In this document: positions 8,841 to 64,000 of the stretch, piece by piece
How positions within the stretch are numbered: the stretch's first letter is position 1
Layout: each line of letters begins with the position of its first letter
Source: a virus
Length of the DNA: 64,000 nt
IMG/VR virus record: IMGVR_UViG_3300009790_002068
Coordinates: 1-64,000 of that record
Direction: 5' to 3' (one strand)
The notes under the pieces: model-generated
What the model was told of the DNA's origin: nothing
The model's database searches: none
The model's input: the letters and a program-made list of their open reading frames with translations, nothing else
Made by a program: the position numbers and the translations under genes

Positions 8841-11273
8841 ATGGCAAAACTATCCGAGATTACAAAAAAAGACCCAGTCGTCTATGTAGACATGGACGGT
8901 GTCCTAGCAAACTTCTTTGGTGCTTGGGCTAAAATGGTAGGTGTTAAAACTTACAGAGATATCCCACAAGACAGAGTTAATGCTACACTTAATAAAATGA
9001 TTGGCACAGACTTCTTTGCTAGACTTCCAAAATTTCCTACAACTGACAAACTAATTCAATTAGTTATAAACAGATTTGGTGCTTACAGTATATGTTCTTC
9101 TCCATTAAGAAACGATCATGAAAATAGTAAAAAGCATAAGATAGATTGGATTGGTAGAAACTTAAAAATTAAACCTCAAGAAACTATTATTGTAGCAAAC
9201 AAAACAGGCTATGCTAAACAGTCAGATGGAACACCTAACATACTAATTGACGACAGAGGACTTAACATTGAAAACTGGCGTAAGGCAGGTGGCTATGGAA
9301 TTAAGTATCAAGCTGATGAAGATTCTTTAGAAGTAGTAGCAAACGGATTAGATGAGTACACACAAAAGTACTTAGGTGAGCGTGGTCCAATGGGCATTAA
9401 CGGATTAACATACGGCGGATTTAGAAGACCTTTAAAAGTAAAAAAGTCTACTCCAGGTAAACTAAGATACCCAAAACCTAAAGGTTCTAAGATGGGCTAC
9501 AGAGCTAGTTCAGGACACGGGTTAAGCTACAAAAAGTATGTAAGAAAAGTTTACGAAGATGTTACACCACAAGACTTAAAACAAATTGAAGCCTATGCTG
9601 ATAGACTATTTTCTAAAGTAGGCATTGATGTAGAATTTACTAGACATTTTTTAGATAGAGTAAATGATGTTAGAAATGAAAAGCCTATTACTCCAGCAGA
9701 ACTAACACGATTATTTAAACAAGAATACAAATACTGGGCAAGACCTATTGCTCAAATGGGACCTGATGCTGAAGCAGTAATGAAAGATATGAGGACAGAT
9801 GTTAATGTTCCTTTTGCTTTAGTATGGGATAAAAAGAATAAAGAATTAGATCTTATTGCTAAAACAGTAATGAGGAAAGCAGACTTTAAAACTTCTAACA
9901 AAGAATTTACTGTTGAGAATGAAGAACTAGATACAAAAGCATTCAATGAAATAATGAATCCAGCGTTAGAAAAATTGGATAGCGTATTCAAAAAGAACAA
10001 GTTTGAAATAAGAATAGTTGGAGGTGCTGTTAGAGATATTGCTTTAGGTAAAACACCTAAAGATATTGACTTGGCATCAGATGCCACACCAGACGAAATG
10101 ATTGCTATGCTAGACAAAGAAGGCATTAAACATAAACCTACTGGACTAGAACACGGAACTATTACAGCAATTATAGATGGCGAAGGATATGAAATTACAA
10201 CGTTAAGAGCAGACACTAATACAGATGGTAGACACGCTGAAGTAGAGTTTATTCGTAACTGGAAAGAAGATGCTAAACGTAGAGATTTAACTTACAATGC
10301 TATGAGCTTAGACTTCGATGGCAACTTGTATGATTACTTTGAAGGCATGGACGACTTACAAGATAAAGTTAGTAAGTTTGTTGGTGATCCAGTAGAACGT
10401 ATTAAAGAAGACTACTTAAGAATACTAAGATATTTTAGATTCCAAAGTAAATTAGAAAGTCCTACTTGGGATCAAGAAACATTAAATGCCATTAAAGATA
10501 ACACTAAAGGATTACCTCAAGTTTCTGTAGAAAGAATATGGCAAGAGATGGGTAAACTATTAGTAGGACATAGTGTAATTCAAACTTTATCTTATATGTC
10601 AGCAACAGGAGTTGACAACGTAATAGGATTAGATACAAACAAGATAGCAAGATTAAGAGATTTAAAAAACAATACAGATCCTGTAATAGCATTAGCTGTT
10701 TTAGTTGATGATACATCTATTGCTAACAAGTGGAAATTAAGTAATGCTGAAGCATACGATTTAAAATTCTATATTGCTTACAAAAATAAAAACTTAACTA
10801 AACAACAAGCTGAACATCTAGTTATAGACGGAAGAGAAAAGTCAAAAGTTATTAACTTATTAAAGATACAAGGACAAGATAGTTTAGCTGGACACATAGA
10901 ACAATTCCAAGTACCTGAGTTTCCTGTAACAGGAAATGATCTTATACAACACGGAATGAAGCCTGGTCCCAACCTAGGCACTATGTTAAACAAATTAAAA
11001 GACTTATGGAAAGATAATGACTACAACTTATCAGCTGATGAGTTATTAAGTGCTGTATCTACTGAGTCTAAAAAGTTTGCTGTTGAACGTATGAATAGTA
11101 TGCTCGACGTAAACGAAGGTGTAGGTATTATTACCAAACAAAACACCACAAAGGATGTTAAGCCAGGCGAAATACGCCGACAAGCAAATAAACTTGGCTT
11201 AATGCTAAACAAAGACGAATTACCTAATCGTCTTTATAGGAGTTGGAAAAATGAAAGAGCCAAAACAAAATGA
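8841..11273 (+). CDS. Fusion: HAD nucleotidase, unknown phage domain, CCA-adding enzyme
   Basis: This 810-residue protein joins at least three modules. Residues 1-180 are a HAD-type 5'(3')-deoxyribonucleotidase with VYVDMDGVLANF (motif I) and ILIDDRG (motif IV). A basic Gly/Lys linker leads to a domain at about 245-375. From about 385 there is a class II tRNA nucleotidyltransferase head: VGGAVRD, the DID metal pair, RRDLTYNAM and EDYLRILRYFRF. The C-terminal tail (after about 750) is a separate short basic module. All five tRNAs in the window encode CCA, so a repair role for the CCA module fits better than maturation. Each module is clear by motif; why they are fused is unknown. Confidence 0.85.
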   Translation: MAKLSEITKKDPVVYVDMDGVLANFFGAWAKMVGVKTYRDIPQDRVNATLNKMIGTDFFARLPKFPTTDKLIQLVINRFGAYSICSSPLRNDHENSKKHKIDWIGRNLKIKPQETIIVANKTGYAKQSDGTPNILIDDRGLNIENWRKAGGYGIKYQADEDSLEVVANGLDEYTQKYLGERGPMGINGLTYGGFRRPLKVKKSTPGKLRYPKPKGSKMGYRASSGHGLSYKKYVRKVYEDVTPQDLKQIEAYADRLFSKVGIDVEFTRHFLDRVNDVRNEKPITPAELTRLFKQEYKYWARPIAQMGPDAEAVMKDMRTDVNVPFALVWDKKNKELDLIAKTVMRKADFKTSNKEFTVENEELDTKAFNEIMNPALEKLDSVFKKNKFEIRIVGGAVRDIALGKTPKDIDLASDATPDEMIAMLDKEGIKHKPTGLEHGTITAIIDGEGYEITTLRADTNTDGRHAEVEFIRNWKEDAKRRDLTYNAMSLDFDGNLYDYFEGMDDLQDKVSKFVGDPVERIKEDYLRILRYFRFQSKLESPTWDQETLNAIKDNTKGLPQVSVERIWQEMGKLLVGHSVIQTLSYMSATGVDNVIGLDTNKIARLRDLKNNTDPVIALAVLVDDTSIANKWKLSNAEAYDLKFYIAYKNKNLTKQQAEHLVIDGREKSKVINLLKIQGQDSLAGHIEQFQVPEFPVTGNDLIQHGMKPGPNLGTMLNKLKDLWKDNDYNLSADELLSAVSTESKKFAVERMNSMLDVNEGVGIITKQNTTKDVKPGEIRRQANKLGLMLNKDELPNRLYRSWKNERAKTK

Positions 11274-11535
11274 TAAATTACAAAGCGTTATTAAAGAACT
11301 TGACAGTATACTTGAAAGTCTCAACCAGGCTCCAACACAAGGTAAAACTAATCTAAAAACTAAAGCTAGTCATTACCTTGGGATAGGTGATAACAAAGAG
11401 TTAACTCGAAAAGAACAAAAAGTACTTCGAGCTAAAGTAAACAAAATAAGAACTTCAGAAAAGAAAAAAACAAAAGCAGAAGGAATAGAACTGTTTAAAA
11501 AAGTTTCATTTGCTTACAACAAGCCTAAAAAGTAA
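11251..11535 (+). CDS. Small basic hypothetical protein
   Basis: A 94-residue, very Lys-rich protein whose start overlaps the end of the fusion gene by 23 bases. It is predicted helical with an ELTRKEQKVLRAKVNK segment near the centre. It could bind nucleic acid or act as an internal head protein, but there is no direct evidence. Confidence 0.6.
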   Translation: MKEPKQNDKLQSVIKELDSILESLNQAPTQGKTNLKTKASHYLGIGDNKELTRKEQKVLRAKVNKIRTSEKKKTKAEGIELFKKVSFAYNKPKK

Positions 11536-11550
11536 AATAACTATTAATAT

Positions 11551-12063
11551 ATGAAGATAGCCATTACAGGACATACGTCAGGTTTAGGGAAAGCCTGCTT
11601 CGATTATTATAACGACATACCTACTATTGGAGTAAAAGGTTTGAGTAGAACTTCTGGATTTGACATCACAGATCCAACTTCGATTGTAACTCATATTTCA
11701 AACTTCCATTACGATGTCTTTATTAATAATGCTTATGACGGCTTTGCTCAAGTAAACTTATTGTATGAGCTAATAAAAGATTTTAAGGGTAAGATAGTAA
11801 ACATATCTAGTAACAGTAGTGATGGTATTAAAAATAAAGTATGGCCGTATTCAGTACATAAATCAGCATTAGATAAAGCTAGTCAACAACTATTCCATAA
11901 CGGATATGATGTTACTAACATTAAATTTGGCTGGTTAGACACAGACAGAGTAAAGCACATTGACGAATCTAAAATAGACTTATTTGATGCTGTTAATACA
12001 ATAGATAATGTAATAAACAGTACTAGTAGAATTGAAACAATTACAGTGGCTCCTAGCAGGTAA
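11551..12063 (+). CDS. Short-chain dehydrogenase/reductase
   Basis: The 170-residue protein shows a Rossmann dinucleotide site TGHTSGLG (residues 6-13), an NNA motif near 70, a catalytic-type Ser in NISSNSS near 96, and the Y-x-x-x-K pair in YSVHK near 108. It is shorter than typical SDRs (about 250 aa) and lacks most of the C-terminal substrate-binding region. It would be an NAD(P)-dependent oxidoreductase; the substrate is unknown. Confidence 0.82.
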   Translation: MKIAITGHTSGLGKACFDYYNDIPTIGVKGLSRTSGFDITDPTSIVTHISNFHYDVFINNAYDGFAQVNLLYELIKDFKGKIVNISSNSSDGIKNKVWPYSVHKSALDKASQQLFHNGYDVTNIKFGWLDTDRVKHIDESKIDLFDAVNTIDNVINSTSRIETITVAPSR

Positions 12064-12071
12064 ATACTAGT

Positions 12072-12263
12072 ATGAGAGCAAAAGAGATATTAAAAGTTCC
12101 TAGTATTGAAATAGGAGATGAAATACTAGTTGGTAAGTTCAAAAACCGTAGAGCTACTATTACTGGCTTTACTAAAGATGAACACAATCAACCTGTATTA
12201 CTAACAAATAAGGGTAAACATAATCTATTCAAAGGTAGAATAGTAAAGTTGATGGACAAGTAA
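12072..12263 (+). CDS. Small protein with MRAKEI N-terminus
   Basis: A 63-residue basic protein beginning MRAKEIL, an N-terminal pattern repeated at 12263, 12551 and 13621. The rest looks like a small beta barrel. A TAAATA element ends six bases before the ATG, so the transcript could be leaderless if that is a late promoter. The last base of its stop codon starts the next gene. Confidence 0.6.
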   Translation: MRAKEILKVPSIEIGDEILVGKFKNRRATITGFTKDEHNQPVLLTNKGKHNLFKGRIVKLMDK

Positions 12264-12499
12264 TGAGAATAAAAGAGATAATTGAGGCCGCGACAGCAGG
12301 TGCTACAGCAAGTGGTAATGTAGCGTCAGTGGTTAATCCACACGTTGCTATAGGCAAAGATTTAAAGAAATACTCAGGAAAACCAGGTAAAATGGGCAAA
12401 ACGCCTAAACCACCTAAACCTAAGAAGCAAAAACCAACAGATAATGCCCTAGATATGAAGGGTACTAGCATATTTGGTGGTCCAATGCTGACACGATAA
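12263..12499 (+). CDS. Internal-head-protein-like basic peptide
   Basis: This 78-residue protein begins MRIKEIIEAATAG. That resembles the T4 capsid targeting sequence, which ends in a gp21 protease site of the form I/L-x-E before A or G. The rest is low-complexity, Lys/Pro/Gly-rich and strongly basic, as in T4 internal proteins, and ends FGGPMLTR. No enzyme motif is present. Packaging in the head is an inference from the N-terminus and composition. Confidence 0.6.
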   Translation: MRIKEIIEAATAGATASGNVASVVNPHVAIGKDLKKYSGKPGKMGKTPKPPKPKKQKPTDNALDMKGTSIFGGPMLTR

Positions 12500-12509
12500 T
12501 ATATTATTT

Positions 12510-12519
12510 TAAATAAATA
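12510..12519 (+). promoter_or_regulatory. Candidate T4-type late promoter
   Basis: TAAATAAATA in the 51-base gap before the gene at 12551 repeats the element seen at 6101. It lies about 31 bases before the ATG. Confidence 0.42.
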
Positions 12520-12550
12520 ACTTAAACAACTACAATTCGGGGTTAAACAA

Positions 12551-13039
12551 ATGAGAGCTAAACAAATAATCGTAAAAGAAGATTTATCCATGGACACTCG
12601 TGTAATGGAAACAGACCACGAAGTACAAATGGCTAGAGCTGATTTATTTAAACTAGCAAAGTACTCCGTTGAACTACACAAGATGCTTAAAAACGTATCT
12701 GAAGCTGAAGGCATTGAAGGTTGGGTACAGGCAAAAATTACTAAGGCCGCTGACTATATTTCAAGTGTAAAACATCATATGGAAGCAACACCAAGTGATA
12801 TTGAACTTGCTGTTAATGTTGGTCCAACTGATATGGAAGCTGAAAGTGTAACAGAATTAAAAAGTGAATTTACAGATGACGAAGTAAGAAAAGCTATTGC
12901 TATAGCTAACCATCCAGATTTTAAAGGTGGCAACTATACTGGAGCATCTGAGAAAATTAATAACATTAAACCTGGATTAGCTGATCATCCAAAAGTAGCA
13001 AGTGCTTTAAGAAAAGCTAACGAGAATAAAGGATCATAA
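12551..13039 (+). CDS. Helical phage protein with MRAKQI N-terminus
   Basis: The 162-residue protein begins MRAKQII, continuing the shared N-terminal pattern. It is mainly helical; the segment EGWVQAKITKAADYISSVKHH (about 56-76) is one I associate with marine T4-like phages, from memory. The C-terminal third is a separate small helical unit. Function unknown; candidate packaged or scaffold-associated protein. Confidence 0.65.
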   Translation: MRAKQIIVKEDLSMDTRVMETDHEVQMARADLFKLAKYSVELHKMLKNVSEAEGIEGWVQAKITKAADYISSVKHHMEATPSDIELAVNVGPTDMEAESVTELKSEFTDDEVRKAIAIANHPDFKGGNYTGASEKINNIKPGLADHPKVASALRKANENKGS

Positions 13040-13040
13040 T

Positions 13041-13634
13041 ATGGCAAACATAGACAATAATTCTTTTTCAAGTTTAGTAGCAAAGCTAAATGAGATGAGC
13101 GAAACAGATGAAAAAGCAAATAAACATAAAGAAATAAAAGTAATAAAAAAAGCAAAAGCTGAGCGTAAACATACCGACCCCCAAGTTAATGCTATGGCTA
13201 ACTTGCTTGAGTCAATTGATGAGACCAAGTCTAAAAAACCTAACCACTTAATAGGCAAAGAGAAAACAAAATCTGTCCCAGCAGGAGAAACAGATGGTAC
13301 AACGAAGAATCCCAACAAAGGTAAACTAGTTGGTGAGGCTGACCTTGATGAAGATTTAATTGCTTCTCTTTCAAATCAATTTAAAGACTTATTACACCCT
13401 AAAGAAGTAGCAACAGAAGAAGAACCTACACCAGAAGCAGTAGGTGAATTTGCTGAGCCAATTTATGCTTTATGTGATGAACTAGAATGTCCAGACCATC
13501 CTGTGTTTGATGATTTAGTTCGTTATTTGAGCGGTGATCAAATCAACGACTTTGTTGACGACTTTAGACGTAACCATGATATGGGAACACACGGCGAAAG
13601 CGTAGAAGAGAAGACCGACAATGAGAGCAACTGA
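13041..13634 (+). CDS. Charged scaffold-like hypothetical protein
   Basis: A 197-residue protein with a Lys-rich, low-complexity N-terminal half and a very acidic C-terminal half (about 100-197) containing a compact Cys-containing stretch CDELECPDHPVF. It overlaps the next gene by 14 bases. The charge pattern resembles head core or scaffold proteins, but no family is recognised. Confidence 0.6.
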   Translation: MANIDNNSFSSLVAKLNEMSETDEKANKHKEIKVIKKAKAERKHTDPQVNAMANLLESIDETKSKKPNHLIGKEKTKSVPAGETDGTTKNPNKGKLVGEADLDEDLIASLSNQFKDLLHPKEVATEEEPTPEAVGEFAEPIYALCDELECPDHPVFDDLVRYLSGDQINDFVDDFRRNHDMGTHGESVEEKTDNESN

Positions 13635-14505
13635 TTTACTAGATAGAAAACTTTCCAAAGGCGAAGAAAAAGAAAAAGAACGTATCGTAAAAGGTATGAA
13701 AAAGTCTAAAGGCGACTTTAAAGATCGTTATGGTAAAGATGCTGAAGCTGTTATGTATGCTACAGCAACTAAAATGGCTAAAGAAGGTTATCAAATTTTA
13801 GACCCTATTGATAGAGAAAAGTATCAACCACGTGACGGACTTGAAGGTCCCTTCCAAACAGTAGTAGGCAAAGTAGTTTACTACGATCCAAAAGAAGGCA
13901 AATACTACGACCCTGATACAGATATGTATTTGTCATATGATGAATGGAAAGCATTAGACGGATTAAATATGGATCCATCAAGTGGTAATAGAACTACTCC
14001 TACATCAGAACATTGGAGTCAAGAAGACGAAGAAGCATACATGGACGGTTTAGACTTAATGGCCAAGTATAAAGAAAATGAGAAGAACAACTATCATTCA
14101 GAAAACGATTTACTATTAGCAAAATCATTTGGTACAGAGAAAGAAGTACAAATGATGGAGTTAATTATTAAGAAAAATAAAAGACAAGGATATACATCTC
14201 CAGAAGACTCTAAATGGATGTATAACAACATAAACAAAAAATATTACCCTAAACTAGTTCAAGCATCATTAGAAGAGGGTTATGGTAAAAAAGAAGTACC
14301 TAATTGTGTTCCTGAAGATGGTTCATCACATACAAGTATGAACAAATACGGACTTTCAGCAAGAAACCACGAAGGAAAGTTTTATTCATACAGACATGGT
14401 AAGATGACAGGTGTTTTTGATACAATGGAAGAACTAGCAAAGCATCAAGAAGAACTAATTAAAAACGAATCTAACACATCTATATTTGACGAAAACTGGA
14501 ACTAA
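13621..14505 (+). CDS. Phage protein with MRATDLL N-terminus
   Basis: This 294-residue protein begins MRATDLL. It contains the segment KGMKKSKGDFKDRYGKDAEA followed by VMYATATKMA (about 24-53), which I recall as a recurrent module in marine phage proteins of unknown role. The centre has repeated YYDP elements; the C-terminus contains a CVPEDGSSHTSMNKYGLSAR stretch. The modular build and shared N-terminus with neighbours suggest a virion-packaged or core-associated protein, not an enzyme. The stop overlaps the next start by one base. Confidence 0.68.
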   Translation: MRATDLLDRKLSKGEEKEKERIVKGMKKSKGDFKDRYGKDAEAVMYATATKMAKEGYQILDPIDREKYQPRDGLEGPFQTVVGKVVYYDPKEGKYYDPDTDMYLSYDEWKALDGLNMDPSSGNRTTPTSEHWSQEDEEAYMDGLDLMAKYKENEKNNYHSENDLLLAKSFGTEKEVQMMELIIKKNKRQGYTSPEDSKWMYNNINKKYYPKLVQASLEEGYGKKEVPNCVPEDGSSHTSMNKYGLSARNHEGKFYSYRHGKMTGVFDTMEELAKHQEELIKNESNTSIFDENWN

Positions 14506-31895: not shown

Positions 31896-34800
31896 ATGTT
31901 TAAATTTAAATCAATTTTAATAATAGGTCTAGTATTTCTTTTAACTGCCTGTGGAGGCGGTGGTGGTGGAACACCTAGTGGTGTTTCTATTAGTCCTAAT
32001 AACACAACAGTATTAAGTACAAACATTCAAAACAATATAAGTGCTATTGACCATGCCTTAGAAACTTTAACAAGTGTAAATGGTATTAGTGCTACAAGTG
32101 TTGATAAATCAAAATTCAAATCAATGAAAGATGGCTTTGATGCTATCAAAAGTTTAAAGACAGAGTACGATAGTTTAAGTAGTGCTGATAAACTTATACT
32201 AGCAAACGTTATGGTTCAAGTAGACCTTGCTGGTTGTAAAACAGGAAGTGGTGCTCAAACATCTTGTCAGAAGTCAATGGCATTAAGTGAAGTTATAGAT
32301 TTTGGTTATAATATGTATACTAGATATTACGAGCCATATCAAAACTTTTGGACTGACGGTGCTACTACAGGTTATGTAGATGAAACATCATCAGAGTTTG
32401 CTAGTATTAAAGCAAGAGTAGAAGCTGACGAATTAAAAAGTAGAGATGATTTAGTATATAATGTTAACGAAGGAAGTGATCCTGTTAAGACAGGTGATCC
32501 TGAACACGTTATAGTAGAATATACAGAAGATAAAAAAATTGTAGTAAGTACAGGTTCAACTAGAACTGTTACAATTAAAACTGAAACAGTAACTTATAGT
32601 GCTGGTACAGTTTCTGATTATTGGCCAACAGACTTTGACGAAACAACTGCTTCAGGATGTAACTGTTCTAAAACATATACAAACAAGTATACGGCAACTG
32701 AAACTTATAATACTCATAGAATAGATACAATCACTTATAAAAGAACTGATACAAAACATACTTGGACTGATGGAAAGGTTACAACTGAATATGGTGAGCC
32801 AACAGTAACTAAAACTGTAACAGGTGACGTTGTAGAAACAGATGTTGTTCAATCAAACTTTAATACAACTTCTACACTTCAAAATACAACTAGTAATGCC
32901 GTAACTGAAACAAGTCAAGAAAGTATAGTAGTTCCAAATTATGATGTTGTAGAAAAGGTAATTATTTCTACAGATGGTACAAGAATTAAATCAACATATG
33001 ATTCAACTGTAGTTGAAGTAACTGGTACTGTTACTAAAACATATACAGACACATACCAAATCACAACAACTTATAGTTCATATAGAGAAGATACAGTAAC
33101 TTATAAAAGAACTGATACAAAAATTAATTATAGCGACGGAACAAGTAAAACTATAACTGGTACTGCTGAAAAGGTTAGTACTGTAACAGGTAACGTAGTA
33201 GAACATGACGTAACTGACAGTGAGCCTGTTAGAACTGCTAGGGTATTAATATCAACAGTTGATTCGAATAGTGTTGCTTATACAGACTCAGATGAAAACT
33301 TAGGTACTAAAACAATAGGCTATTCAAATAATGCTAATGACTTTTTAGATAGTGAAACAAGAGCATATTGTGGTAGTTCATATAGTGCTTGTTCATTAGA
33401 TAGTTTAACAGTTTTCACAGATGACAATCTTGCTAACGGTACAGGTACAAGTTTTCAACATATAGCAGAAGCAGGTATTAATGATGCTTGGGCTAGAGGT
33501 TGGACTGGTAAAGGTGTTAATGTAGGTATTATTGATACAGGTGTTAATATTCATCACGATGAATTAGATGGACAAATAGGCGGTGTATACAATAACGGTT
33601 CAACAGACTGGGACGGACACGGTTCACACGTTGCTGGTACTATTGTTGCTAAAAAAGATGGCAAAGGTACAGTAGGTGTAGCATTTGATTCTAAATTGTA
33701 TGTTGTTAGAGAAACAGGTTTGAATTACAATAAAGAAGAGTATTGGAATTACTTTAAAGAAAATAACGTTGATGTAGTTAACGTTAGTATAAATGGAAGA
33801 TGGGACTATAATGTTACATTCGACGACAGTTATGTTGTTGGTAGTGATGTTAATAATCAAAACGACACTTATAAATCATTATCACTTATTGATGGTAATA
33901 AAAACTTATACAAGTGGAACAAGACATTATTCCAAAACGGTTCATACCACAATGTTAATACAAAGATAGCAATGGATGATGACGGAAACATACTTTACGG
34001 AGGCATAGACAGTATAGAAGCATTGAGTACATTTATGTCAGGAAGTGAAATTATATTTGTTAATAGTGCTGGTAACCAAGGTTATAGTGTGGCGGCGACT
34101 CCGGGTTGGTATGCTACTGTAACAGACGACAATGGCGATTTAATGCTAGACGGAAGAATGATTATAGTTGGTTCATATGATCCTGCTAGTGGTACAAACA
34201 ATAGCTATTCAAATGGTGCTGGACATATTTGTAGAGAAGTAGTAAATGATGTTTGTCAAGATGATTATACAGTAAGTGACTTTTATATTAGAGCACCAGA
34301 GGCGTTTACATCATTAGATAATGTTGGTAATGGATATATTGATATGTCAGGTACTAGTATGGCGGCTCCTGTTGTAACAGGTAGTATTGCTTTAGTTAGA
34401 CAGATGTGGCCACATATGACAGGTGAGAACACAGTTAAATTAATTTTACAAACTGCTGATAAAAGTTATGACGGATATGATGTAGGTGTAGACGGACAAG
34501 GTAGATTAGATATGGACAAAGCTACACAGCCAGTAGGTGCTACAGGTATTCCAACAGATGGTAGAACAACTGGTAATACTATTAGTTCAACAGGATACAT
34601 AGCAGGTGGTAGTTCAATACCAAATGAAGTTAGTTCGTTGATTGTAGAAATTGATGAAGCTAGTTTTAATAGAGAATGGTTAGTGCCAATTGCTGAAGCT
34701 CACGTTAATATAGATACTGCTTTCCATAGCTTTACAAATTATGCTGGTATGACTGCTATTGGTACAAATGACTTTGCTTTACATTTAACTGAAAATGATA

Positions 34801-35351
34801 CAAACAAAATTGCTGTCACATTAGACGGTACTACATTTGGTTATATCAAAGAAGAAGGACAGTATCTAGGAAAATACTTTAATGGTATGTTTGATATTGG
34901 TGAAACACAAACGGCTTTCTTACAAAAAGGTAATACTTGGCAGACAGGTAACAATACTTGGTTAAGTGCTAATGTAAATTTAGGATATACTCAAGTTGAA
35001 ACAGTAGGACATTCGCTAATTAACAGTTCAGATGATTTATTAAGTTACGGTTGGAGTACTCAAGTTAATCATAATGTTGATGAGAATTGGTCACTTACAA
35101 GCTTCTTAGCACAGCCTGTTAGTGTTGTTTCCGGAGACATGAACATTAATGCTCCTACAAGTAGAAATGGTGATACAGTAAGCTATACAGATACAACGTA
35201 TAGTCAAAAGGTTCAAACAGAAACTGATATTGGTATTACTGCTAAATTTGTAAAAGAAAACTTTAACTTTAGTATTGGTGGTGTTAGTAGATTTAATACA
35301 GTAAATGGCGACACTTATAACGTAACTACTTCCGTTGGTTGGAAGTTTTAA
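31896..35351 (+). CDS. Lipoprotein subtilisin-like serine protease with autotransporter-like C-terminus
   Basis: The 1151-residue protein begins with a lipoprotein signal (LLTAC, lipidated Cys19) and a Gly linker. Residues about 260-320 and 381-441 are a divergent tandem repeat (TYKRTDTK in each). A subtilase (S8) domain follows with the triad Asp547 in GIIDTGVN, His575 in GHGSHVAGT and Ser821 in GTSMAAP. After about residue 900 the sequence is beta-rich and ends VGWKF, as in autotransporter barrels. It would act on the cell surface. Such a protein is unusual in a phage; surface proteolysis or receptor processing is inference. Confidence 0.85.
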   Translation: MFKFKSILIIGLVFLLTACGGGGGGTPSGVSISPNNTTVLSTNIQNNISAIDHALETLTSVNGISATSVDKSKFKSMKDGFDAIKSLKTEYDSLSSADKLILANVMVQVDLAGCKTGSGAQTSCQKSMALSEVIDFGYNMYTRYYEPYQNFWTDGATTGYVDETSSEFASIKARVEADELKSRDDLVYNVNEGSDPVKTGDPEHVIVEYTEDKKIVVSTGSTRTVTIKTETVTYSAGTVSDYWPTDFDETTASGCNCSKTYTNKYTATETYNTHRIDTITYKRTDTKHTWTDGKVTTEYGEPTVTKTVTGDVVETDVVQSNFNTTSTLQNTTSNAVTETSQESIVVPNYDVVEKVIISTDGTRIKSTYDSTVVEVTGTVTKTYTDTYQITTTYSSYREDTVTYKRTDTKINYSDGTSKTITGTAEKVSTVTGNVVEHDVTDSEPVRTARVLISTVDSNSVAYTDSDENLGTKTIGYSNNANDFLDSETRAYCGSSYSACSLDSLTVFTDDNLANGTGTSFQHIAEAGINDAWARGWTGKGVNVGIIDTGVNIHHDELDGQIGGVYNNGSTDWDGHGSHVAGTIVAKKDGKGTVGVAFDSKLYVVRETGLNYNKEEYWNYFKENNVDVVNVSINGRWDYNVTFDDSYVVGSDVNNQNDTYKSLSLIDGNKNLYKWNKTLFQNGSYHNVNTKIAMDDDGNILYGGIDSIEALSTFMSGSEIIFVNSAGNQGYSVAATPGWYATVTDDNGDLMLDGRMIIVGSYDPASGTNNSYSNGAGHICREVVNDVCQDDYTVSDFYIRAPEAFTSLDNVGNGYIDMSGTSMAAPVVTGSIALVRQMWPHMTGENTVKLILQTADKSYDGYDVGVDGQGRLDMDKATQPVGATGIPTDGRTTGNTISSTGYIAGGSSIPNEVSSLIVEIDEASFNREWLVPIAEAHVNIDTAFHSFTNYAGMTAIGTNDFALHLTENDTNKIAVTLDGTTFGYIKEEGQYLGKYFNGMFDIGETQTAFLQKGNTWQTGNNTWLSANVNLGYTQVETVGHSLINSSDDLLSYGWSTQVNHNVDENWSLTSFLAQPVSVVSGDMNINAPTSRNGDTVSYTDTTYSQKVQTETDIGITAKFVKENFNFSIGGVSRFNTVNGDTYNVTTSVGWKF

Positions 35352-50137: not shown

Positions 50138-50891
50138 ATTAATCTTTGTAAGTTTTGAACAATCCACTGGCGGATACGGAATAGCTAGAACTATTTGTTC
50201 CTTGCCAGATGTGTATTGGTATAGTCATCCAGATAACGGAAAACAACCCTGGAATATTCATTTGGATATGGATACATTTTACGATTCAGACACTTATGTT
50301 AAACAAAGACTAGTAACTCCAAGACACTTTGATCGCTGGATAAATGGTGTTAAATTACCCCCAACTTGGGACTATGTAAAAGACTATTTTCCTGATCATG
50401 AAGGTTATTTAAGAGCCATCTTTTTTCCTGCCATTGAAAAAGCACAGCGACAGACGTCTAAGAAGCTGGTTTTTACCACACATTTAAGCACTTTTCAGTT
50501 AAGGCAGTACTTTGGTACTAGTGCCTGCTTAAACGTGCTGTACGACCCTTTAAAAGCGTTTAAACGCCATATTTTAACCACTAGTAAGTTCTTAGCATAT
50601 AACGTAATGCCTGGTTTAGCAGACCCTAATAACGAATATGTTAAATTTTTGGAAACCATAAGAACCAAAAAACCAGACTTTAATAATGCTGATGTTTGGG
50701 CTATGAAAAAGCACTATGAACTATATGATGACGAGAAACATAGAGCACAATATCATGCTGAAATTTTAGAAGAAAAAGAAACCCGATTAGCTGTAAGAAA
50801 AATATTGGGTGAAAAGGATAATACTATCTGTACTATCCATCAAGATAAAGTAGATTGGAAAAAAGTTAAGACTTATTTGAATTCGTTATAG
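50124..50891 (+). CDS. Hypothetical protein, weakly sulfotransferase-like
   Basis: A 255-residue protein with an N-terminal LIFVSFEQSTGGYGIARTIC strand-loop-helix that could be a P-loop of the sulfotransferase type, then a helical body. The match is weak. It is coupled to the ANL core gene by a 14-base overlap and converges on uvdE with a 19-base overlap. Confidence 0.5.
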   Translation: MDESKLIFVSFEQSTGGYGIARTICSLPDVYWYSHPDNGKQPWNIHLDMDTFYDSDTYVKQRLVTPRHFDRWINGVKLPPTWDYVKDYFPDHEGYLRAIFFPAIEKAQRQTSKKLVFTTHLSTFQLRQYFGTSACLNVLYDPLKAFKRHILTTSKFLAYNVMPGLADPNNEYVKFLETIRTKKPDFNNADVWAMKKHYELYDDEKHRAQYHAEILEEKETRLAVRKILGEKDNTICTIHQDKVDWKKVKTYLNSL

Positions 50892-51883
50892 AATTTAATA
50901 CTAGCAAGATTTTTCATTTTGCTTTCACACATAATATCAAAATCTTTAGTAAATGTCCAAGCCCATTCATTAACAGGCTTGTTCCAATAGTAATCAGAAT
51001 GGCCACGTAACTTGCCTTTCTTGTAACCACTTTCAAGTAGTTTATTATAATCGGGTTTTACGTCGATCGGATGATCGATAATATAGTTTTCACGACTAAT
51101 GCTATAATGGCAAACAGGCCGAACGCCACGCCAAGAATCAATAACACGTCTAATCCTGTCGTCGCTTGGAGTAATATATTCTCCGGCACTATGAACCCAG
51201 TGGTGGTGTATGTCGACAACTAATGCTACCTCCTTTTCAAGTTCGAGTGAGGCGTCGAGGCCCCACGAGTTTTCATCGTTTTCAATAGTAAGTGTGTTTC
51301 GTGCTTCTGTAGACAATCTTGGAAGGACGGCTTTGATACCGGCTGGACCTTGTCTGCCTGAGATGTGGACGTTACACTTGAAGTCCTGCCAGTTTTTACC
51401 GTAACCCATGTACCTGATGAGATCCGCATGATATTCAAACTCCTCTATACTTCTATTTACTATATCTGGATTGTCACTTGCTAATACTGTAAATTGTCCA
51501 GGATGAAATGACAATCGAACATTGTGTTTTCTAGCTAGGTCGCCTACCTTAATAAGATGTTTCTGACAATAAGCAATTACATCTGGCTTGGTCCAATAGT
51601 AAGACCAATCAGGATGTGTATATACAGGAAGACAATCTGAGCCTAAACGTACCATTCTAAGTTCTGGCTCTAGTGTTGTAACATACTCTACAAGATTGTA
51701 ATACGATTGGATATTATGTACCATAATATCCCACAGACGGTCTTCAGCAACTTCTTTAGTTTGCCTATTAAGCCATTGTACGGTTGTAGATCTAGTATTC
51801 AACGGACGCTGAATATCTTCTAGTAGTTTTTTCTTTTGTGATTGATCTGGGTGTAAATATTTACAAGCAAAGCCTATCTTCAT
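50873..51883 (-). CDS. uvsE: UV damage endonuclease (UvdE/UvsE)
   Basis: The 336-residue TIM-barrel protein has the family motifs VRLSFHPGQFTVLAS, TIENDENSWG and ALVVDIHHHWVH, which supply the metal-binding His, Glu and Asp residues. It nicks DNA 5' to pyrimidine dimers, starting an excision pathway independent of UvrABC and useful for a phage in sunlit water. It has its own promoter at 51912-51940. Confidence 0.92.
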   Translation of the reverse strand: MKIGFACKYLHPDQSQKKKLLEDIQRPLNTRSTTVQWLNRQTKEVAEDRLWDIMVHNIQSYYNLVEYVTTLEPELRMVRLGSDCLPVYTHPDWSYYWTKPDVIAYCQKHLIKVGDLARKHNVRLSFHPGQFTVLASDNPDIVNRSIEEFEYHADLIRYMGYGKNWQDFKCNVHISGRQGPAGIKAVLPRLSTEARNTLTIENDENSWGLDASLELEKEVALVVDIHHHWVHSAGEYITPSDDRIRRVIDSWRGVRPVCHYSISRENYIIDHPIDVKPDYNKLLESGYKKGKLRGHSDYYWNKPVNEWAWTFTKDFDIMCESKMKNLASIKFYNEFK

Positions 51884-55134: not shown

Positions 55135-55737
55135 TTATTTATCTGATTTTGGCTTTCTAAATACAATCATATTGTGGTATTGTTTCTCGCCCTCAGGCGT
55201 TGTTAAACTGTGAACAGGCTGGATTGTAACAACTTCTAAGTCTTTTTGTGAACTCCAACCACCATCAAAGAACCAATCACCATCGTGTTTAGTCATGCTA
55301 CAATAAAGCAACCCATCATCAGTTAAACTATCAGCTATATTCTTTGAAGCACTAGCATCAACGTGGCCTTTTGTTAATACACCAATAGCTGTTATACATT
55401 TGTACTTTTTAGGAAGTGGTGCTTTAGTTATATCGTGTATTTGTGTTGATCTATAATTTTGTGCTATAAATCTATCAAGCATTGGTTGATTAATATCGTA
55501 CCCGTCTAATAGGTAAAGTCCTTGATTTATAGCAAATCCTACTTGTCCGTTACCACAGCCAATGTCAGCTACTTCTGTACCGTGTGGAAAGTTATTAATA
55601 ATCCATTCAGATGCTAATGTATGGCACTTCCAACCTAGTTCTTCAATCACTTGTTCGTTATAGTTTACCCAGTTATCGTATAACTCGCTGTTGGTTTTAC
55701 CATATACTTCATCTAACCATTTTTCATTATCACTCAT
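55135..55737 (-). CDS. Class I SAM-dependent methyltransferase
   Basis: The 200-residue protein has an intact motif I, TEVADIGCGNGQVGF (about residues 54-68), a GYDINQPML acidic strand, and an LTDDGLLYCSMTK strand near 142. It belongs to the UbiG/type 11 class, which methylates small molecules. It overlaps the nitroreductase gene by eight bases, so the two and the ANL ligase form one coupled set. Confidence 0.86.
   Translation of the reverse strand: MSDNEKWLDEVYGKTNSELYDNWVNYNEQVIEELGWKCHTLASEWIINNFPHGTEVADIGCGNGQVGFAINQGLYLLDGYDINQPMLDRFIAQNYRSTQIHDITKAPLPKKYKCITAIGVLTKGHVDASASKNIADSLTDDGLLYCSMTKHDGDWFFDGGWSSQKDLEVVTIQPVHSLTTPEGEKQYHNMIVFRKPKSDK
55136..55142 (-). promoter_or_regulatory. Candidate T4-type late promoter
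   Basis: ATAAATA on the minus strand overlaps the methyltransferase stop codon and lies 37 bases before the ATG at 55098. It would start the late fibre transcript. Confidence 0.48.
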
Positions 55738-56419
55738 AATATCTAACCATTTTGTTAAGGGCTTGTCTTTGTGTTCTATACTTATTGATTATATTCTTAG
55801 TATCTTCATACCCAATACTCATACCACATAATACTATTTTATCTTTGTACTCAGGTAGTTCTTGTCTTACAATATCAGCATATTCTCCTAACGAACCCTG
55901 TGGGCAGGTTGCTAATCCTTTTTCTGTTGCTAATAGCATAATAGATTGTAAAAACATTCCATAATCTACATACGAACCTTTTCCTAGTTCTTTGTCAATA
56001 AAAAATAACAGCATAGCTGGAGCATCAAAGGCTCTATAATTTTTAGCATATAACAAACTTTTACGCTCTGTCATTTCTCTAGTAATACCTAGTTGGTTAT
56101 ATAAAGCTAACCCACAAGCCTTTCTATTTTCTTTATATGAGCCAAACCATTCTGTTTCTTTTTCACTGTTTTTATATTGAGGATAATATTCATAGTCCAT
56201 AGCAGGTTCTATACCAGAACGAAATGCTTCTTCTAACTTGCTACACAAATTCTTTTTTGCTTCACCTGTTAATACTGCTATTTGCCAAGGTTGATGATTA
56301 TCTCCACTAGGTGCCTTTTTGGCTTGTTCTAAAATAGAGTTTATAATATCAATTGAAACTGGATTCTTTAAAAAAGCTCTAGTTGACTTACGTTTTTCTA
56401 AAGCGTCACTAACGATCAT
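55730..56419 (-). CDS. Nitroreductase-family flavoprotein
   Basis: The 229-residue protein matches the nitroreductase family: SDALEKRKSTRAFLKNPVS at the N-terminus and APSGDNHQPWQIAVL for FMN binding, then a GLATCPQGSLGEY motif and a C-terminal SIGYEDTK. It would oxidise or reduce a small substrate with FMN and NAD(P)H. It overlaps the methyltransferase (8 bases) and the ANL ligase (4 bases). In some pathways such enzymes act on aryl or heterocyclic groups loaded by an ANL enzyme; that use here is inference. Confidence 0.9.
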   Translation of the reverse strand: MIVSDALEKRKSTRAFLKNPVSIDIINSILEQAKKAPSGDNHQPWQIAVLTGEAKKNLCSKLEEAFRSGIEPAMDYEYYPQYKNSEKETEWFGSYKENRKACGLALYNQLGITREMTERKSLLYAKNYRAFDAPAMLLFFIDKELGKGSYVDYGMFLQSIMLLATEKGLATCPQGSLGEYADIVRQELPEYKDKIVLCGMSIGYEDTKNIINKYRTQRQALNKMVRYYE

Positions 56420-57834
56420 ACCCTTGAATGATCCTTTATAGTAACTTTACCTATAATATGAGGAGGGCTACTAGCTTGGACAATGTCTGGTAGTTTACTT
56501 TTTTGTAATTTGTTTGGTCCTGAAAAATATAACTGCTCTGTAACGTGATATATGTCATGGGGTCTTTTAGATTCTTGAGCTTCTTCTATGTAATGTTTAG
56601 CAACTTCATTTATGTTTGCTGTTCCTGTATAAATCAAGTGATGTATTTCACCTTTTTCACAACTAGCAACATTTTCAACTCCCTCAACTTCAAGTGCCAA
56701 TGCTTCAACTAGTCTTGTAAAAATTTTAACACCACCTTTCATAAAAATAACGTCATCAAATGCTCTACCCTGGAAATACCACATACCATTTTTGTTTTCA
56801 AATTTGTCACCATCTGTGTGCCAGTCTAGTGTTCCGTATTTGTACCAAAGAATACCTCTTTCGTCTAGTTTAAGCTCACCGTTATATATTCTGTGTTTAA
56901 ATCCATAAAAGTTTTCTGTCGGATCACCTCGTCTATACTCTGCCCTTGAATGACAATCTGCTTCTGTACTTGCCATCATATTGTATATTACTTTAAACTT
57001 AAATTTCTGCTCAATAGACTTAAGAACTACTTCAGGTGTATGACCTCCCGAACATTCCCAATAGTCAATTGTCCAATTAAAATCATCTGGGCAAGAGTCT
57101 ACTATCTTTTTAATAGCATTTGGATAAGAAATACAACAATTAGGTTTTGCTTTTTGTATTTCTCCTGGTATATCATCACCGTAGTTTAAGAAATGTAAAC
57201 TACCACCTATATAATACATTCTAAGTAAATTATAAGGATTGTAAGTTGATGTAAATCCGTGTGTACAAAGTACTTTAGGTCTTTCTGTTCCTTTATTAAA
57301 CTCTGGTGCAACAGCAAACAAATGATTTGTGGAGGCGTGTGCTGTACAGCCTAATAATGTTTCACCGTTTACAATAGCATTTTCATGATCTTCGTAATCC
57401 CAAAAGAAAGGATACATTTCAAAAATTTCTTTAACAGTAGTTCCGCTTGTTTGGCCTCTGAATATTTCTAATGGGTGTAAAATTGTTGGTCCTGTTTCAG
57501 CAGGATCAGTTAACATTTCTATTTTGTTTGAACGTATAATACAAGTTGGTTTACAAGTAGCAATTAAACTATCTAATTCTAATTTAGATTGTCTAGCTTC
57601 TGCGTTTGTTGCCGAGCCACCATTTTTAATACTAGCTAATACCCACAGATAGTCGTCTATTGTAACTTGGTCTTCTGTTAAGATAAAAACAACGTGCTGG
57701 CCAATGCCATGTTCTTTTAACTTTTCTACTTTAGCGTCTAAATTGGCGTGAAGTTCGCCCCACGTAATTTGTTCTGTTGATGAACTTAAAAATACTTGAT
57801 TGCTATCTAATGGTTCTTGATATTGCTTTAACAT
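56416..57834 (-). CDS. ANL superfamily AMP-forming ligase
   Basis: The 472-residue protein is full length for the family: phosphate loop RGQTSGTTVKE (about 150), MMASTEADCH as the TE motif, WHTDGDKF with the ribose Asp, the hinge GRAFDDVIFMKGG and a C-terminal GPNKLQKSKLP with the catalytic Lys. It would activate a carboxylic acid as an acyl-adenylate and pass it to a thiol or amine. The substrate is unknown. Neighbours are a nitroreductase, a methyltransferase and a dioxygenase, so it may be the loading step of a small-molecule pathway. Confidence 0.87.
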   Translation of the reverse strand: MLKQYQEPLDSNQVFLSSSTEQITWGELHANLDAKVEKLKEHGIGQHVVFILTEDQVTIDDYLWVLASIKNGGSATNAEARQSKLELDSLIATCKPTCIIRSNKIEMLTDPAETGPTILHPLEIFRGQTSGTTVKEIFEMYPFFWDYEDHENAIVNGETLLGCTAHASTNHLFAVAPEFNKGTERPKVLCTHGFTSTYNPYNLLRMYYIGGSLHFLNYGDDIPGEIQKAKPNCCISYPNAIKKIVDSCPDDFNWTIDYWECSGGHTPEVVLKSIEQKFKFKVIYNMMASTEADCHSRAEYRRGDPTENFYGFKHRIYNGELKLDERGILWYKYGTLDWHTDGDKFENKNGMWYFQGRAFDDVIFMKGGVKIFTRLVEALALEVEGVENVASCEKGEIHHLIYTGTANINEVAKHYIEEAQESKRPHDIYHVTEQLYFSGPNKLQKSKLPDIVQASSPPHIIGKVTIKDHSRV

Positions 57835-60139: not shown

Positions 60140-60818
60140 TTTTTACCTCTCTATAATACTCTAACAATAGTAATTCAGCTTTAATAGTTTTGCTTTCGTC
60201 GAAGTCTTTACCAAGATGTTTTCTAAACCAATCTATAATTTCGTTTGTCTTTTTATTAACTAGCATATTACAAAAATCTACACTTATTTCACACTCTGCT
60301 GTATTCCAACTATCAAGATGTTTATCCCAATCATTATTTGGATAAAATTTCTCTGCTCTATTACGTTGATACTCACAACTCTCCCACGTTTTAGATTGTA
60401 ATACTATTCTTTTAATATTTTTATGTACTGTCTGCCAAGGTATTTCGTTCCAGCTATGTAAATGATAAACTATCCTGTTGTTCTCTACAGGTGAATTCCA
60501 AGTAGGATAAAATTCTGTATTGTTACCACACCAAAACAATTCCATTTGCCTACAAGCTAATAATGTTGTTCCTAAGAATTCAAAGAAAGTATTGTAGTCT
60601 TGATCTTTAGGTTTATTTTGTTCTAGAAAAAAGTTTACAATACGTTTAGGCAACATTGTATCATAATAAACTTCTCCGTTTTCTCTCATAGTTCTTTCAT
60701 CATCATAGTTTTGGTGCTTATCTAACTCACACCAAAGTCGAGAAAAAAACTGGCCACTAGAGCCAGGTATGTAATCTATTATTACTAGTTCATTGTTATC
60801 TAAAAATTTATATTCCAT
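60120..60818 (-). CDS. Sulfotransferase-like P-loop protein
   Basis: The 232-residue protein has an N-terminal LVIIDYIPGSSGQFFSRLW strand-loop-helix, like the 5'-phosphosulfate-binding loop of sulfotransferases, and later YHLHSWNEIPWQTV and RIVLQSKTWESCEYQRNRA segments. It lies between the kinase-like gene and the radical SAM gene, overlapping both. The substrate is unknown. A general P-loop role cannot be excluded. Confidence 0.6.
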   Translation of the reverse strand: MEYKFLDNNELVIIDYIPGSSGQFFSRLWCELDKHQNYDDERTMRENGEVYYDTMLPKRIVNFFLEQNKPKDQDYNTFFEFLGTTLLACRQMELFWCGNNTEFYPTWNSPVENNRIVYHLHSWNEIPWQTVHKNIKRIVLQSKTWESCEYQRNRAEKFYPNNDWDKHLDSWNTAECEISVDFCNMLVNKKTNEIIDWFRKHLGKDFDESKTIKAELLLLEYYREVKSVPAIS

Positions 60819-61968
60819 GCTCTAAATATTCCATATACAATTCTACATCTTCATCTAAGTCTTGTATATTAACTCCTCTTATTGTATTACATTGTTTGAT
60901 CCAGCCTAAGGTTTTTCTGAGTTTTCTTTCTTCATCTTCTTGTGTATAATTTGTAAGTGAACTAACAAACGATAACTTATCTTCATGGGTACAAAACTCT
61001 GAAATGTCTAACTCTTTAATTTCGCTTATAGTATCTCTTAATAACTCGTGTGGTATATTTTTAATAGAACAGTAGTCAGGTCCGTGTACAAAATTATTAA
61101 GTTTAATCTTTGTTTTACTACCCCATTCCTTTGATAATAACCATCTTAACAAGTTTGGTATTTGCCAAACATTAAACACACTAAACACAGGCATTATTAT
61201 AAGCTGAATACCGGCGTCTTTTAGCTTCATTAAGTTATCTTCTACAGTATTAAAGTTATAGTTCCTAATGTAACTATACATAGGTCCTACAGCGTCAATA
61301 CTAGGGCAAATATGAACGTTTAGCTTCTTAACTACGTCTACAATCGAGTCTGTTATAATCGTACAATTACTAGTCATAGCTACTTCGTTCGGCATATTAT
61401 TTTCAGCCATTTGCTCAAGTAAGTAGACTCCTTCTCTGTTAAAAAATGGCTCTCCGCCAATTAGCTCTATCTTTAACGAGGGATTAATTTTCATCTTACT
61501 TAATAGATCGTCTATAAATGGCCTATCAATTTTAAAGTTTATCTTTAGTAACTCTTTTCTATCAGCAAACATTTCAGGCATTTGCTTATCATACTGTCGC
61601 CAGCCAGTAGAAAAATCACTACCACAAGTAACACAGGCAACATTACATTGATTGCCTAATGCTAACTCTACAAATTTTGGTGATATATTTTTTTTGGTAA
61701 AAAGTTGACTAGCATTGTTTAAGTTATACTTTTCTCTTTTAGATCTATTGCCTAAATCTTCTTGTTCCCAACAAGAACGGCATCCTGGATGTTGTAAATC
61801 TTTATCAAAAGAATCAATAACTTCTTTTCTAAAATCTGATTCCCAATATTCTGAAATAGTTTTGTGATTGCCTGCTTTAGTATTATCAAAAGCACAACAG
61901 GGTATAAGATTACCCATTGAGGATACAGCTACAGCTTCATATGGCATCCTACAAAACTTGGAAGGCAC
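60808..61968 (-). CDS. Radical SAM protein with extra N-terminal cysteine cluster
   Basis: The 386-residue protein has the radical SAM CxxxCxxC in GNQCNVACVTCGSDFS (about residues 106-121) and the GGEPF motif (about 172) that contacts SAM. Before it, an N-terminal segment with CRMPYEAVAV, GNLIPCCAFDN and GCRSCWEQ resembles a SPASM/twitch domain placed ahead of the barrel, likely binding a second iron-sulfur cluster. Such enzymes act on peptides or small molecules. It overlaps the next gene by 11 bases and follows the amidinotransferase by three. Confidence 0.85.
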   Translation of the reverse strand: MPSKFCRMPYEAVAVSSMGNLIPCCAFDNTKAGNHKTISEYWESDFRKEVIDSFDKDLQHPGCRSCWEQEDLGNRSKREKYNLNNASQLFTKKNISPKFVELALGNQCNVACVTCGSDFSTGWRQYDKQMPEMFADRKELLKINFKIDRPFIDDLLSKMKINPSLKIELIGGEPFFNREGVYLLEQMAENNMPNEVAMTSNCTIITDSIVDVVKKLNVHICPSIDAVGPMYSYIRNYNFNTVEDNLMKLKDAGIQLIIMPVFSVFNVWQIPNLLRWLLSKEWGSKTKIKLNNFVHGPDYCSIKNIPHELLRDTISEIKELDISEFCTHEDKLSFVSSLTNYTQEDEERKLRKTLGWIKQCNTIRGVNIQDLDEDVELYMEYLEHGI

Positions 61969-63524: not shown

Positions 63525-63532
63525 TATAAATA
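63525..63532 (+). promoter_or_regulatory. T4-type late promoter
   Basis: A perfect TATAAATA, the T4 late promoter consensus, 32 bases before the ATG at 63565. It lies in the divergent gap between the minus-strand operon and the plus-strand gene at the right edge. Confidence 0.65.
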
Positions 63533-63564: not shown

Positions 63565-64000
63565 ATGAAAATATACTACGATCACGTTTATGGTACAATG
63601 GAAAAACTTGATATCCGTTGTTCCGAAATTCTAGCAAAACACGTTAAACCAGAAGAGGAATTAAAAGCCCTCGACATGGGTTTCCTATGGCATAGCGTAG
63701 AAGGTGATTACGACATATGGTATAATTCACGTTCTGTTAGGGTTGATTTAAGCACTTGGAAAACCAAAAGGAAAAAACCTGTATGGCATAACGTGAAAGA
63801 ACTTAAACGTAACGACCCTCGTTGGCTTCCTATGTACAGCAAGTACATAAAAAGCAAAAACTTATACCCGTATCCAGGAGATGATGAAGTACACAAAGAA
63901 AACAAACTGCTAGGATACTTTGACGATAGCGACAAACTAATAGGCATCTCTAAAATTCGCGAATACGTTGGTGCTTGGGAAACTTGTATATTTGCCCACG
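63565..64000 (+). CDS. Partial GNAT-like protein, cut by window edge
   Basis: The frame runs from ATG 63565 off the right edge with no stop (145 residues visible). It begins MKIYYDHVYGTMEKLDIRCS and contains EELKALDMGFLWH, SRSVRVDLSTW and GYFDDSDKLIGISKIREYVG, the last resembling a GNAT-type beta strand and loop. It follows a perfect late promoter. The acetyltransferase/aminoacyl-transferase-like fold is a guess. Confidence 0.65.
   Translation, partial: MKIYYDHVYGTMEKLDIRCSEILAKHVKPEEELKALDMGFLWHSVEGDYDIWYNSRSVRVDLSTWKTKRKKPVWHNVKELKRNDPRWLPMYSKYIKSKNLYPYPGDDEVHKENKLLGYFDDSDKLIGISKIREYVGAWETCIFAH

Follow-up and report, generated by a model that had tools for sequence, protein, structure and literature searches.

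A single open reading frame at positions 8841-11273 (+) of the window (the whole stretch of viral DNA analysed, 64,000 nt) runs from ATG to stop and encodes an 810-residue protein in which a HAD nucleotidase, a middle domain (MID) and a CCA-adding enzyme are fused in the order HAD-MID-CCA, and it is virtually certain that this fusion exists as read. What might such a chain do for its phage? The mechanism that we favour, at even chances of being right, is a polyvalent enzyme kit that would be packaged in the phage head, possibly processed, and injected into the host. Module shuffling, a capsid-targeting-like N-terminus, prohead-protease-like motifs and a cluster of tagged genes were not noticed in the original prediction, which had been made from the window alone.

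Open reading frames of HAD-MID-CCA layout are also present in three further contigs, L002 (99% identity, 810 aa), L003 (86%, 810 aa) and L004 (77%, 805 aa); the counterpart in L005 lacks only the middle domain and that in L006 lacks only the CCA module. All three modules are under purifying selection, because dN/dS is 0.04-0.19 in each (window versus L003 or L004), and the recurrence of the layout together with this selection means that the fusion is real and maintained. The three-part fusion originally proposed therefore stands, its reading frame open throughout, and the label "giant" holds only in a relative sense, since fusions related to it are up to 1425 aa long. Between the window and L003, dS is uneven by module (MID 0.19, CCA 0.39, HAD 1.13), and this contrast within one pair suggests exchange at module boundaries. 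For the whole chain AlphaFold gave a poor model (pLDDT 59, from a thin alignment), and we accordingly make no claim on how the domains are arranged. The peptide that ends the protein is portable: GVGIITxQNTTxDVxPGE..RQA recurs in unrelated open reading frames (L095, L098, L127, L143 and others) at N-termini, in the middle as linkers, or at C-termini, following tags or xE and usually directly after [hydrophobic]xE.

Table 1. Features of the fusion protein and its neighbours in the window (a slash marks a putative cut).
Feature	Residues or size	Coordinates (strand)	Basis or remark
NMN-adenylyltransferase-like N-terminal domain, upstream neighbour	437 aa	7527..8840 (+)	PF01467, E 6e-6
N-terminal tag MAKLSE/IT, T4 capsid-targeting/prohead-protease-like	1-8	8841..8864 (+)	putative cut after LSE-6
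HAD module, NT5C-like 5'(3')-deoxyribonucleotidase	9-178	8865..9374 (+)	Pfam and phrog_2643
Putative prohead-protease sites LDE-172, LGE-180, at HAD end		9348..9380 (+)	[LI]xE motif
Basic linker	179-235	9375..9545 (+)	low model confidence; confined to closest relatives
MID module, predicted RegB-like RNase fold	236-356	9546..9908 (+)	AlphaFold, Foldseek, hhalign
CCA module, class II CCA-adding enzyme	365-740	9933..11060 (+)	TRNT1 homology and motifs
C-terminal portable peptide module (VNE/GVGIITKQNTTKDVKPGE...)	757-810	11109..11270 (+)	
Tagged protein (MRAKEIL...)	63 aa	12072..12263 (+)	tag-like start
Tagged protein MRIKEIIE/AATAGATASGNVAS	78 aa	12263..12499 (+)	orthologues in L002-L006
Tagged protein (MRAKQII...)	162 aa	12551..13039 (+)	tag-like start, conserved in L002-L006
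Tagged protein (MRATDLL...)	294 aa	13621..14505 (+)	tag-like start, conserved in L004, L006

The two outer modules are very probably active enzymes, judged by their conserved motifs. Pfam NT5C (PF06941) matches residues 12-148 with E 7e-7, above the Pfam cut-off, and phrog_2643 matches the HAD module with E 8e-23; the motifs DxDG(V/T) and DD are present in 67 of 67 homologues and S/T-S-P in 61 of them, in agreement with the nucleotide phosphatase first envisaged. In the CCA module, Pfam recognizes a PolyA_pol head at 390-510 (E 1e-33), PolyA_pol_RNAbd at 544-591 and, weakly, tRNA_NucTran2_2, and human TRNT1 (4x4w/1ou5) aligns over its full length with residues about 362-740 (E about 1e-83 to 4e-83), so that the C-terminal neck, body and tail of a class II enzyme are present. 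The motifs GG..RD, DxD, the flexible loop DGRHAEVEF, RRD and EDxxR occur in all 26 CCA homologues, this protein included; the core that had been called complete-looking is thus borne out, and the loss of catalytic residues looked for by alignment was found in neither HAD nor CCA. Among class II enzymes, the flexible loop is lost in CC-adding types, and its intactness here favours addition of the full CCA rather than CC. ARAGORN finds five tRNA genes in the window, and CCA, read directly, is encoded in five of five, as had been stated. Because the phage tRNAs already carry CCA, the module would serve repair of tRNA 3' ends and not maturation, a preference of the original prediction that is plausible. 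Its further suggestion, that the HAD domain locally supplies nucleotides, found no support: HAD frequently stands as a gene of its own, and the fused proteins are possibly cut apart.

The middle domain had been described as of unknown role. It indeed has no Pfam match, either in a scan of the 810 residues or, apart from merely weak and unrelated matches, on its own, and the PHROGs families that cover it, phrog_23027 (E 5e-17) and phrog_14518, are of unknown function. By prediction, on the other hand, it is likely to have an RNase fold of the RegB-like, RelE/BECR type. Structure prediction, which had been proposed as a check and which did poorly for the full-length chain, gave a confident MID model from 40 sequences (pLDDT 93.7), with helices followed by a small beta sheet. 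In Foldseek, this model matches the predicted structure of a phage RegB-type RNA endonuclease (E 4.9e-6, TM 0.62); solved structures match weakly, the RelE-family HigB2 among them (E 0.3). Local profile-profile alignment of MID with a RegB profile in hhalign gave P 4.5e-4 and a probability of 33%, with a score above 80 of 80 column shuffles, and the best-aligned part is the catalytic segment (YSQHLLDR against FTRHFLDR); hhalign of MID against the T4 RegB sequence alone gave no match. H269 and R273 of MID are invariant and T342 nearly so, and the histidine motif and a K[TS][VI]M motif are present in 65 of 65 MID-bearing open reading frames of the fetched loci. RegB has two catalytic histidines, H48 and H68. 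The invariant H269 aligns with H48, and a lysine occupies the position of H68 in MID, which is why the domain is named RegB-like and not RegB. H48 has been reported as catalytic (PMC3014915), and the helix histidine plus late-strand T/S of MID also agrees with the PBECR pattern that Iyer et al. describe (PMC5512222).

The source is a large marine virus of bacteria, a T4-related jumbo phage that is probably like RaK2 and Atu_ph07. Its DNA polymerase is closest to those of the jumbo phages Phosso (49%) and Atu_ph07 (45%), and the genes DnaJ-ClpA-w5838-w6140 just upstream of the fusion are syntenic with Atu_ph07 gp293-gp290. These lie inside Atu_ph07 CDS 284-329, one of three clusters rich in virion proteins by mass spectrometry (PMC6102473); that cluster contains no counterpart of the fusion gene. 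Genes for gp21, gp23 and a T4-type portal are present in related contigs, the gp21-type protease in G007 and G011, and all three are absent from the phage's own record (83 kb, a fragment) and from its nearest relatives L003-L005. No canonical T4 late promoter TATAAATA stands upstream of or near the fusion gene, and this sequence is strongly avoided across window positions 1-64000 (1 copy versus 11.8 expected); the sole copy, at 63525, lies just ahead of an open reading frame at 63565. The variant TAAATAC, which is not enriched in the window, ends 22 nt ahead of the 7527 gene. Elsewhere the window encodes a 1151-aa protein (31896-35351) that starts like a lipoprotein (MFKFKSILIIGLVFLLTACGGGG) and matches the phrog_3677 "protease", a homologue of the UV-endonuclease UvdE (50873-51883, -), and metabolic genes for a nitroreductase, an AMP-binding enzyme and a radical SAM/SPASM protein (55730-57834, -, and 60808-61968, -).

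T4 internal proteins are packaged by means of a 10-residue N-terminal tag (PMC9026906), and the T4 protease gp21 removes such propeptides, cutting Alt at ITE-6 (PMC5694885). The N-terminus of T4 IPII is MKTYQEFIAEA, and the start of the fusion protein resembles such tags: relatives L002-L006 conserve [LI]xE[VI] with varying flanks (MKLSEV, MNIGEV, MKLGEV, MAKINEI). Just four [LI]xE occur in the 810 residues; LSE-6, LDE-172 and LGE-180 fall at a module edge or beyond the conserved modules, and IKE-523 lies inside the catalytic EDxxR motif of CCA. The L-x-E at position 180 recurs in L003-L005 as LNE, LGE and LTE, and no exact [LI]xE is present where MID joins CCA. The [LI]xE motif is nearly threefold enriched just upstream of modules (69 observed versus 24.7 +/- 4.4 shuffled, an excess that in part includes the tag itself), nearly threefold depleted inside them (66 versus 186) and unenriched downstream (33 versus 34.7), figures for a short motif in module sequences related by descent.

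Tag-like starts cluster around the fusion. Only 5 of the 93 window genes have one, all in an 8-gene run at 8841-14505, a 5.7-kb cluster (hypergeometric P 1e-6, an optimistic value, since the tag pattern was defined after seeing these sequences). As a control, the pattern occurs at 1 of 465 internal Met positions; in the related loci a tag pattern is found in 35% of module genes versus 6.6% of others. The 78-aa protein of the cluster contains EAATAGATASGNVAS, which matches the capsid-protein pattern L[NAS]E/SATAG[AS]TxAGN and is nearly the stretch that would come after the putative cut of major capsid proteins from related T4-like phages (LNE/SATAGATQAGN). Upstream, the stop codon of the NMN-adenylyltransferase-like gene abuts the fusion start, an order kept in L002-L005, with one gene intervening in L004.

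The modules are shuffled. In the fetched loci, HAD-MID-CCA is found in 4 open reading frames, CCA-HAD in 8, MID-HAD in 5, and HAD-MID, HAD-CCA and MID-CCA in 1 each; every module also occurs in single-module open reading frames, and modular ones carry in addition SpoT-like HD (HD_4), Zeta-toxin-like kinase and IrrE-like peptidase domains. As far as predicted architectures go, this is the pattern of the polyvalent proteins of phages and conjugative elements (Iyer et al. 2017, PMC5512222). MID is almost confined to phage contigs, the isolates including Methylophilales phage Melnitz, Sinorhizobium phage phiM12 and immuto, and is nearly absent from cellular genomes (3 MAG contigs). In phiM12 gp159 (L172 6540-8348, 602 aa), MID stands at the end, and to the eye the beginning resembles a degenerate nucleotidyltransferase, an echo of the NMNAT-like gene beside the window fusion. 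Two more short modules recur in many modular open reading frames, ENFADGKVKGKSRPGRVKRxGASC and KYKKSINCSNPKGFSQKAHCAGKKK (L031, L096, L098, L111, L120, L131, L153, L156, L159; L023, L030, L125, L132, L143, L145, L152).

According to the mechanism that we favour, the N-terminal tag MAKLSE would bring the 810-aa protein into the core of the prohead; there a gp21-type prohead protease would remove the tag and possibly cleave the chain between modules as well, at [LI]xE-like sites. A nucleotidase, a RegB/RelE-type endoribonuclease and a CCA-adding enzyme would result and would enter the host together with the ejected DNA; host mRNA or other RNA would be the substrate of the endoribonuclease and the CCA-adding enzyme would restore tRNA 3' ends, so that the kit would work ahead of phage gene expression, inactivating host messages and protecting the tRNA pool. 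Its parts differ in likelihood. Packaging in the head is somewhat more likely than not; cutting between modules is a possibility that we rate slightly short of evenly balanced. We infer injection with the DNA from tags, motifs and gene position, and the benefit would be early RNA attack with tRNA 3'-end repair.

What else might account for these observations? That separate genes were joined by chance or in assembly, with no joint meaning, is extremely improbable: several relatives (L007, L014, L015 and L017) do have HAD and CCA as two genes close to each other, but the identical layout stands in four independent contigs at 77-99% identity and under purifying selection, and fusions are repeated in other module orders. 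The sequencing artefact against which the original prediction had warned is ruled out by the independent contigs. An unlikely reading, yet a weightier one, is that of an ordinary fusion enzyme inside the cell, produced early and left out of the head, whose N-terminal resemblance to capsid-targeting tags would be incidental and whose roles would be nucleotide salvage, mRNA decay and the CCA repair of tRNAs that host nucleases have damaged. It would fit with the stand-alone CCA-adding enzymes of many jumbo phages, interpreted as tRNA repair (PMC7824862), such as Atu_ph07 gp18, and with the production of T4 RegB early from a typical early promoter (PMC3014915). It accounts poorly for the conserved, clustered tags of the fusion and neighbouring genes, the depletion of [LI]xE inside modules, the capsid-protein-like segment in a cluster gene and the adjoining segment syntenic with a virion-protein cluster.

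It is also unlikely, in our estimation, that the protein is packaged and MID is non-catalytic, an RNA-binding domain or a head or scaffold tether carrying varied enzymes as cargo. Many proteins with nothing else in common have MID immediately after the tag, which fits targeting or tethering, the second RegB histidine is replaced, and the head protein MuF of phage Mu has been described as containing an inactive BECR domain (PMC5512222). Against this, H, R and T are very strongly conserved in a BECR-like arrangement, and MID also occurs in mid-protein or C-terminal positions and is missing from many tagged proteins.

More broadly, T4-related jumbo and marine phages could, with a probability somewhat below even, share a protease-cut polyprotein format: a capsid tag followed by interchangeable modules (RNase, tRNA CCA repair, nucleotidase, SpoT-like HD, ParB-like, kinase) joined by prohead-protease sites. 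One chain would be packed in the head, cut as the head matures and injected, and the resulting kit would destroy host RNA and repair tRNAs. The present findings offer a likely fold and function for a widespread phage domain family of unknown role (phrog_23027/phrog_14518) and connect the polyvalent proteins with head targeting as well studied in T4; they lead to the prediction that infection may begin with the joint injection of an RNase and a tRNA-repair enzyme. A search of open-licence papers turned up no description of a CCA enzyme in a capsid-targeted fusion. Melnitz and phiM12 are cultured phages with the RNase-like module, so that parts of the proposal are directly testable.

Several known systems come close. 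The HAD module shares family and motifs with phage NT5C-type deoxyribonucleotidases (phrog_2643), here fused and tagged, and the CCA module is homologous over its full length, with all motifs in common, to the class II enzymes human TRNT1 and Atu_ph07 gp18, the latter a separate gene, unlike the fused and tagged module here. T4 RegB (PDB 2hx6) is alike in predicted fold, with equivalents of H48/R52 in MID (HFLDR, HLLDR), and differs in that pairwise sequence homology is undetectable and that RegB is an early stand-alone protein whereas MID is a module within larger proteins. T4 internal head proteins and Alt have the same kind of short N-terminal tag with an [LI]xE cut site (MKTYQEFIAE/A; ITE-6), but the cargo here is a multi-enzyme chain with putative internal cuts. 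There is also a likeness to the polyvalent proteins (PMC5512222), which also join unlike enzymatic domains in one chain with extensive shuffling, have RNase (PBECR), RelA-SpoT, ParB-like and metallopeptidase partners, and have been proposed to be injected with DNA. CCA enzymes go unmentioned in the main text of that survey, and, unlike the proteins it describes, the modules here follow capsid tags of the T4 type, are accompanied by putative prohead-protease sites and belong to T4-related phages.
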